The translations under genes and the position numbers were made by a program. The notes under the pieces were generated by a model that saw only the letters and a program-made list of their open reading frames with translations, made no database searches and was not told where the DNA came from. DNA of 64,000 bases, from the NCBI RefSeq assembly GCF_937891065.1, contig NZ_CALAEQ010000268.1, forward strand, positions 19,730 to 83,729, in the 5' to 3' direction. This DNA comes from an uncultured Lutibacter sp. (GTDB lineage Bacteria; Bacteroidota; Bacteroidia; Flavobacteriales; Flavobacteriaceae). This document shows, in pieces, positions 3,487 to 12,787 of this stretch (its first letter is position 1; each line of letters begins with the position of its first letter).

Positions 3487-3756
3487 ATGGTATCAATCAA
3501 TTTAACAGAAGTAAATAGTAAAGTTCAAATTGCTAAAATTATTAGAACTATTATGGAAAATAATAGCATTAAAAAAAGTGAATTAATTTTAGGAACTAAT
3601 CTTAGTAAAACAACCATAAATAATGTGTTAAATATAAATGATTCAGAAAGTGATTATATGTTTAATTCTTTACTAAAAGTATTGAATTTTTTAAAAATTA
3701 AAATATTTGTGGGGACTAATGAAGATGCTAAAAATAAAGTATTGTCTCTCTTTTAA
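3487..3756 (+). CDS. small helix-turn-helix DNA-binding protein
   Basis: 89 aa; IKKSELILGTNLSKTTINNVLN resembles an HTH segment. Confidence 0.5.
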   Translation: MVSINLTEVNSKVQIAKIIRTIMENNSIKKSELILGTNLSKTTINNVLNINDSESDYMFNSLLKVLNFLKIKIFVGTNEDAKNKVLSLF

Positions 3757-11052: not shown

Positions 11053-11074
11053 AAATAATATTTTTTAATAAAGT

Positions 11075-11170
11075 AAATTGAGGTTTTCTGAAATTTGACT
11101 TTTGTGTCATATTGAGCTTGTCGAAATATGACACAAAATAAGTTTTATTTTTTTTAGAAAACCTCAATTT
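11075..11170. repeat. nested double inverted repeat (cruciform / bidirectional terminator) between convergent genes
   Basis: Outer perfect 15-bp arms AAATTGAGGTTTTCT (11075-11089) / AGAAAACCTCAATTT (11156-11170); inner perfect 14-bp arms TTTTGTGTCATATT (11100-11113) / AATATGACACAAAA (11125-11138). Confidence 0.85.
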
Positions 11171-11181
11171 TTTTATAAACA

Positions 11182-12012
11182 TCATTCATTTAGCAAACGT
11201 TCTATTTCAATTCTAAGATTGTTAATTTTAACGTTTTCAGCAATTTCTAAACGACCATTATATCTAACTCTACCATTTTTTAGAATGGTTAAATGCGGGT
11301 ATAAATTAAAACTTAAACTTTGTGAGATTTCATTGGAACTAGCATATAAGGTCGGAAATTTATAACCTAATTCTTTGACTAATTCTTTTGTTTTTATTAA
11401 GGTATCTCTTTTTATAGGTACATTAACACTGAAAATAGCAACATTTGGATTGTTTTCGTATTCTAAATATACCTTTTCATAATCAGGAAATTTTTTAAAA
11501 CAAACCCCACAACTTGTTGTCCAAAAATCCAATACAATAACTTTATTTTTAATTGTATCAAGTTTAATTAATTTATCACTATTACTTAATAACTCAATTT
11601 TAGGAGATTTATCATTTACTCTCACATTATAATTCCTTATAAATGAATTCAAATTATCAAATCCATAATAAAATATAAATACAATAAAAAGTATAAAAAG
11701 TAAAGAAAATGTTTTTGATTTTTTTTGTGTTAAATAACCGAATAAAATACTTGTTGGAATAATTATCAGATAAAATAAAATAATACTAGTTAATGCATTT
11801 TTTAAAAATAATGTTGAAGTCATTAATAGTAAAAAAGGAATGCTAAAAATAAAAACTTGCTTTTTAGTTCTAGAATAAAAACCAATTATAAAATAAAAAA
11901 TTGACATTAAAAGCAATAACCACTTATGATTGCCATTTAGGGCAATTAGCCCAATTATTAAGTAAAAAATAATTGGGCTAACAGCAGTAAAAATGATTTT
12001 TAAAATTTTCAT
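11182..12012 (-). CDS. multi-TM membrane protein with C-terminal TlpA/thioredoxin-like domain
   Basis: N-terminal hydrophobic helices; C-terminal VIVLDFWTTSCGVCFKKFPDYEKVY (CxxC) thioredoxin fold. Confidence 0.85.
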   Translation of the reverse strand: MKILKIIFTAVSPIIFYLIIGLIALNGNHKWLLLLMSIFYFIIGFYSRTKKQVFIFSIPFLLLMTSTLFLKNALTSIILFYLIIIPTSILFGYLTQKKSKTFSLLFILFIVFIFYYGFDNLNSFIRNYNVRVNDKSPKIELLSNSDKLIKLDTIKNKVIVLDFWTTSCGVCFKKFPDYEKVYLEYENNPNVAIFSVNVPIKRDTLIKTKELVKELGYKFPTLYASSNEISQSLSFNLYPHLTILKNGRVRYNGRLEIAENVKINNLRIEIERLLNE

Positions 12013-12013
12013 A

Positions 12014-12723
12014 TTAACCAGTACAATCTCCAGTGCAACTCTGCATACCTAACCATCCACAACCAAAAGTTGTATCTTCACAACTATTATCACTGCAATC
12101 TCCTAATTGAGCAAGTTGACAAGTAATATCCCATCTGCAATCACAATTATCTGTACCACCACCTCCAAGACCATCATCCGGGTCCGTTTCTACGTCTATA
12201 ACTCTTGAGGAAAATTGAAATTCACTTTTGTCTTTAACCGCATCAACATTTAACATACCAAAACCACTTACTAAAAAGTAAGGAGTCCATTTAAAATTTA
12301 ATTTTCCTTCTTCAAACCAAGAATTTAAAAATAATAATTGCTCTTCGGATAATTCTTTTGAAAAATCATATTTATTGAGAAGTTTTTCAAAAGTCTTTAA
12401 ATGATTAATTTCTTCTTCTGAAAAATTTAAGGATTTAATTTGTTTAAATTTGTCAACCCAAAGTTGTTTTCTTTTTTTAGGTGAAAAAGTTCTAAAAGCA
12501 GCTTTTTGTTTTTCGACTGTTAAAACAACTAATTCATTTCTATTCATAGTTTTTAAAGATTCAAGGTTTTCTTTAGCCCAAGAATCAATTTCTTTGTCAC
12601 AACTGTAACAAGTGTCATCTTGACAACCTATATTTGCAAAAGAAATTAAAAATAAAAAGATTAAAAGTTTGAAGTTTGGTGTTCGGTGTTCGGTGTTCGG
12701 TGTTCGGTGTTCGGTGTTTTCAT
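12014..12723 (-). CDS. fulvocin C-related Cys-rich lipoprotein/bacteriocin-like protein (start region phase-variable; internal-Met ORF is 12014-12547)
   Basis: C-terminal NCDCRWDITCQLAQLGDCSDNSCEDTTFGCGWLGMQSCTGDCTG with 8 Cys; upstream of the listed ORF the frame stays open and encodes a lipoprotein signal FKLLIFLFLISFANIGC, but there is no in-frame ATG; the ATG at 12723 is out of frame by one heptamer repeat. Confidence 0.72.
12678..12719. repeat. heptanucleotide tandem repeat GGTGTTC (GAACACC on the coding strand), 5 perfect copies plus one imperfect
   Basis: Direct reading: GGTGTTC x5 (12678-12712) then GGTGTTT (12713-12719). Confidence 0.97.
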
Positions 12724-12787
12724 AGTATAGCTTTTTTAAATTATTAAACTTAAAGATAATACTTTCTATTTTATAAAAAAAACTAAA

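Follow-up and report, generated by a model that had tools for sequence, protein, structure and literature searches.

A fulvocin C-related lipoprotein gene with a putative phase-variable start and a membrane-anchored thioredoxin partner in an uncultured Lutibacter

Introduction

Fulvocin C is a Cys-rich bacteriocin of Myxococcus fulvus (Hirsch 1977; Tsai and Hirsch 1981, both cited in PMC8708641), and the fulvocins are counted among the myxobacterial RiPPs (PMC8708641). Pediocin PA-1 is a bacteriocin that has a putative thiol-disulfide oxidoreductase, PedC, among its genes, and PedC is regarded as an accessory to maturation (PMC4919988). Myxobacteria also have the SitA toxins, which are cassette-encoded lipoproteins specific to kin (PMC5562445, PMC8546572). 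Contingency loci, in which slippage in simple sequence repeats (SSR) switches a reading frame, have been described for example in Campylobacter (PMC8355987).

Here we describe a gene pair in a 64,000-nucleotide stretch of DNA from an uncultured Lutibacter sp. (the window), which compares with each of these systems. The first protein shares with the NF033852 family, to which the Cys-rich bacteriocin fulvocin C has given its name, both an 8-Cys C-terminal module and an N-terminal domain; the annotation of that family is silent on repeat-based switching and on a thioredoxin partner, both of which are seen here. Whereas fulvocin C is known as a released mature peptide, the module in the window forms the C-terminus of a precursor that resembles a lipoprotein. 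An oxidoreductase gene accompanies it, as in pediocin PA-1, but unlike PedC the partner is a TlpA protein with five transmembrane (TM) helices that is also found alone. The likeness to SitA is by analogy only; the SitA immunity protein is not a thioredoxin, and no outer membrane exchange is known in the present case. Slippage is proposed here as in the SSR loci; however, the best-known of these come from host-adapted bacteria and concern surface structures, whereas our case concerns a bacteriocin-related gene, environmental bacteria and units of four or seven bases.

Results

Based on a profile search we identified the lipoprotein gene (Table 1) as a member of NCBIfam family NF033852, "bacteriocin fulvocin C-related protein", with 99.8 bits (E 2.4e-28; curated cut-off 35 bits) over profile positions 1-149 of 150. 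The resemblance to fulvocin C, which the original prediction had drawn from the Cys pattern, was thus correct. The C-terminal stretch of about 46 residues that it had quoted, with 8 Cys and a CxC start, was present letter for letter, and all eight Cys were invariant in an alignment of 13 homologues (set A1). NF033852 also matched 9/9 members of set A4, including loci from Bacteroidales, Prevotellaceae and Acidobacteria. A provisional sequence of fulvocin C scored 22 bits against a profile built here; seven Cys aligned and the eighth was placed differently, and we take this comparison as a lead only. Neither Pfam nor PADLOC gave a meaningful match to the lipoprotein, and a sequence search of the PDB found nothing. 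A PDB fold search with the predicted model gave no match, which leaves the helical N-domain without a solved relative. AlphaFold confidence was low for the 8-Cys module, whose cysteines probably form four disulfides, judging from the even number of conserved Cys. As the 13-row alignment was too divergent for a scan of the collections, the partner served as bait.

Table 1. Position of the lipoprotein gene, its partner and flanking features in the window.
Feature	Position	Strand	Remark
Hairpin-rich intergenic stretch, queA to cassette, with nested palindrome; probably a bidirectional terminator	11055..11180	.	by inspection
Partner: five TM helices and TlpA/ResA-like thioredoxin domain, CGVC active site	11182..12012	-	
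Fulvocin C-related Cys-rich lipoprotein gene (NF033852)	12014..12723	-	ATG 12723 out of frame with body (OFF)
Layout of lipoprotein body: signal segment, helical N-domain, Gly-rich linker, 8-Cys C-terminal module	12014..12723	-	
C-terminal 46 residues, 8-Cys fulvocin-like module opening with CxC	12017..12154	-	
Hydrophobic signal segment with lipobox-like end FANIG|C, then QDD (export-signal-like)	12611..12673	-	
(GAACACC)6.4 heptanucleotide tract in signal-peptide n-region	12674..12718	-	+1 or -2 units restores frame
64-bp divergent region, lipoprotein ATG to rlmN; candidate promoter region for both genes	12724..12787	.	by inspection

Weak matches at loci L005, L006, L007 and L022 covered the helical domain only, without the Cys module, and were left out of the family. 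The proteins at these loci form a related family that shares the helical domain and has a different, Cys-poorer C-terminus, and a secreted protein of ~270-290 residues accompanies each copy; three copies occur in genome G089. This may be a sister system.

The C-QDD following the putative lipid-bearing Cys fits loosely the Bacteroidetes surface-lipoprotein export signal (LES), in which a polar residue and then acidic residues come after the +1 Cys (PMC5080379), and the pattern is not conserved in relatives. Most members of the family have a lipobox-like end; some lack a lipobox, and those at L031 and L039 have no lipid anchor.

The GAACACC tract begins about one codon after the first ATG and covers codons 2-17. 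Being a tandem array in the 5' part of the coding sequence, with a 7-bp unit and thus no multiple of three, it has the make-up of an SSR contingency tract. At the current copy number, reading from this ATG ends after 20 codons, while one unit more would give a protein of 238 residues and two units fewer one of 231 residues. In the body frame there is no ATG, GTG or TTG upstream of 12547, a position behind the signal segment, and the gene is therefore OFF in the present assembly. The array is the only one of its kind in this genome, and among 114 relatives a GAACACC array was found in one further case, outside any coding start. As the partner gene starts one base past the stop codon of the lipoprotein gene, premature termination when the gene is OFF may lower translation of the partner too, which bears on the idea of an immunity function.

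Repeats of other units were found at the same place in relatives. A Flavobacteriaceae MAG (L016/L027) has (AACA)~17 (17-17.5 copies) at the tract position of its fulvocin gene and is OFF; an Acidobacteria MAG (L039) has (ACAA)15 there and is in frame, thus ON. Together with the window these are exactly three tracts with units of 4-9 bases and at least 4 copies in 417 kb, namely the window and the non-redundant loci, which were picked for holding the family or the partner or for the empty-site test and consist mostly of other sequence. For units of 2-3 bases and at least 6 copies the same 417 kb held only (GTT)9, in the leader of the fulvocin-related gene of L008, just upstream of its ATG. We considered whether AACA tracts are simply common in Flavobacteriaceae, and ruled this out: as an outside control, (AACA)≥6 occurred in 7/395 genomes of the family, and among the sites read the fulvocin site alone lay inside the start of an ORF, the others being intergenic or in a 5' leader. 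On a tree, which is poorly resolved, the tract trait amounts to three changes, and since the units differ as well, the tracts of the window, L016/L027 and L039 most likely arose independently. No tract was present in about 19 of the 23 family members, indicating that switching is not needed for function. Tract lengths were read from one genome per species and the window is a draft contig; the phase-variable start that the original prediction had proposed is supported by the frame-shifting tract and by the most likely independent tracts in relatives, and we infer that tract length varies between cells.

Among the sites of the outside control, those at L074, L078 and L079 (~1490-1560, on the matching strand) lie just 5' of the start codons of exported proteins, which are a TPR lipoprotein, a CxxCH cytochrome-like protein and a rhodanese-domain lipoprotein; these tracts possibly tune translation or transcription. 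At L039 a second Acidobacteria fulvocin-related gene (3490-3540) follows a GGAGG motif without an in-frame ATG, and would have to start at an ATT or be off.

The copy in the window could also be a decaying pseudogene in which the tract is incidental. It is now out of frame, and decayed fulvocin-related copies do occur elsewhere (L010, L018 and L021). However, the frame behind the tract stays intact despite the OFF state, with the signal segment and all 8 Cys, and L016 and L039 carry different tracts at this position, that of L039 leaving the gene in frame. We regard decay as very improbable.

The downstream gene had been predicted to encode several TM helices joined to a TlpA-like domain with CGVC, and Pfam, AlphaFold and fold comparison agree on this. 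The partner matched AhpC-TSA (PF00578) with 43.3 bits (cut-off 26), as well as Redoxin and Thioredoxin. The five TM helices were predicted in residues 2-126, and a confident AlphaFold model (pLDDT 88.7) placed them ahead of a TlpA/ResA fold; by fold comparison the thioredoxin domain matched ResA and TlpA structures. Against the ResA model NF002854 the protein scored 53.5 bits, below the curated cut-off of 170, by which we class it as a ResA relative and not as ResA itself. C168, C171 and P239, the last at the cis-Pro position, were invariant among partner relatives. The CxxC pair holds the only cysteines of the window partner, and among its relatives no TM cysteine was conserved. An electron relay of the DsbB, DsbD or VKOR type was therefore ruled out, and on the alignment the membrane part is best described as serving for anchoring or recognition. 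Five helices, being an odd number, would fit a redox domain on the periplasmic side.

The pair recurs. Whole-genome searches and one plasmid gave 19 fulvocin-anchored loci, of which 18 were assessable because L073 was cut at a contig end, and 13/18 had an adjoining multi-TM thioredoxin-like gene in the same orientation (the window, L012, L013, L014 with two copies, L015, L016, L018, L020, L021, L046, L070, L071 and L072). The partners of L070 and L072 (CGGC and CRSC; no Pfam match) were recognized by inspection only and that of L071 by sub-threshold matches; at L008, L009, L010, L017 and L019 no partner was found next door. Pairing among these loci extends to Bacteroides, and with the partner as anchor further pairs came to light in Bacteroidales, Prevotellaceae, Flavobacterium, Winogradskyella and Acidobacteria, the last with two pairs in tandem. 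The two-gene cassette of the original prediction thus holds up in the neighbourhood comparison. The two outcomes that it had named as counting against it, a Cys pattern at odds with the family profile and a partner that is not conserved, did not occur. A gene for a DUF1573 Ig-like lipoprotein comes third in seven loci or more and is absent from the window; on a Bacteroides finegoldii plasmid the annotated gene order is DUF1573 - fulvocin C-related - TlpA. We found nothing on point in the literature on DUF1573 with TlpA.

Such an operon might serve metal or redox homeostasis, with the Cys-rich module binding metal or acting as a redox sink, the TlpA protein keeping its thiols reduced and the DUF1573 lipoprotein helping. 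ResA, TlpA and CcmG proteins mostly reduce thiols, and DUF1573 is often adjacent, as this would have it. We nevertheless find it improbable, as the alignment of 13 homologues has no conserved His and no repeated CxxC metal-site patterns beside the eight invariant Cys, and sporadic presence and switching would be unusual for metal homeostasis.

NF033852 was above cut-off in 12/397 genomes of the family, 5/395 of the order and 3/395 of the phylum. Close kin of the partner were found in 38 other genomes of the genus only once, as an orphan in Lutibacter oricola (L026; G009:C22:934-1779), and the same-genus genomes searched gave no match for the peptide gene. In 17/17 other Lutibacter checked the site is empty, with queA and rlmN side by side. 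In another Flavobacteriaceae genome (L014/L023) the cassette lies close to rlmN too, so the site may be old or favoured. Phage and viral collections contained no homologue and thus gave no evidence of carriage by phages. Within the hairpin between queA and the cassette (window 11095-11145) we also observed the nested palindrome TGTCATATTGAGCTTGTCGAAATATGACA, which looks like a dispersed REP-type element.

Partner genes with no recognizable fulvocin gene nearby were found at L024 (Olleya), L025 (Polaribacter), L026, L028, L029, L032 and L034, and the whole genomes of L024, L025 and L026 gave no NF033852 match. The orphan of L025 occupies the accD-side locus that holds the pair in L027, with 56% identity between the partners, and looks as if the peptide gene has been lost. 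The partners of L024 and L026 are 81% identical despite the different genera, and in Maribacter (L029, 3000-7140) the orphan is flanked by genes for a serine recombinase, a MazEF-like pair and an IS3-type transposase; the partner gene itself therefore seems to travel. A pure maturase would be useless in genomes without the peptide, while self-protection or a wider redox role would fit. The original prediction had the redox protein either form or maintain disulfides in the peptide or protect against it. The orphans argue against disulfide formation as its sole use and make self-protection at least as likely.

The main rival to a toxin is a non-toxic lipoprotein of the cell surface, be it an antigen, an adhesin or receptor-like, which would have a disulfide-stabilized head, be switched to evade phages or predators and be folded by the TlpA protein. 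It is typical of contingency loci that tracts stand at the start of genes for surface proteins, the homologues are highly divergent in sequence, and the lipobox-like end of most members and the export-signal-like C-QDD would suit a surface protein. On the other hand, the family of the module is named after a bacteriocin, L031 and L039 do without a lipid anchor, and partners kept without the lipoprotein would be odd for a dedicated foldase. We see this as a possible, though not a probable, explanation.

Discussion

Our preferred reading, to which we give a probability of roughly 0.5, is a horizontally acquired, phase-variable cassette of the bacteriocin type, consisting of a lipoprotein and an oxidoreductase that acts on its disulfides. 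The first gene would yield an exported lipoprotein precursor made up of a helical carrier domain, a linker and the fulvocin C-like module, its eight cysteines probably oxidised. The second gene, probably translationally coupled, would yield the periplasm-facing TlpA-type thiol-disulfide oxidoreductase, and this might fold the module in export, disarm incoming copies from kin, or possibly both. Slippage in the tract after the ATG would shift the reading frame, so that just a fraction of the cells would make the lipoprotein. We infer the redox action on the module, the antibacterial activity and the surface display; family membership, the sporadic and mobile distribution, the switching and the shield-like orphan partners point to a toxin but do not prove it.

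A more specific and rather doubtful idea is redox immunity, in which the five-TM TlpA protein would reduce the disulfides of incoming fulvocin-like peptides and so be the immunity protein of a phase-variable bacteriocin. A lone partner might then be kept as a shield after loss of the peptide, as at L024, L025, L026, L028 and L029.

The fulvocin-related family, the thioredoxin fold and repeat-based switching are each of an already known kind. The literature searched gave no description of their combination, of its recurrence across phyla or of a possible redox immunity. Nor did we find a report that environmental Bacteroidota or Acidobacteria switch a bacteriocin-related gene by means of repeats, in a search that covered few subscription journals. 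The sequence of fulvocin C has been known for decades, and full-text searching of the papers covered turned up nothing on the working of its relatives.

With these results the fulvocin C-related family gains a conserved redox partner and, in DUF1573, a frequent third gene. For the switch at least three origins are most likely, each with its own repeat unit, and the results suggest that in environmental Bacteroidota and Acidobacteria such repeats make a bacteriocin-related gene phase-variable. The cassette offers a direct and cheap entry to what fulvocin-related peptides do, and to whether a thioredoxin can be an immunity protein.
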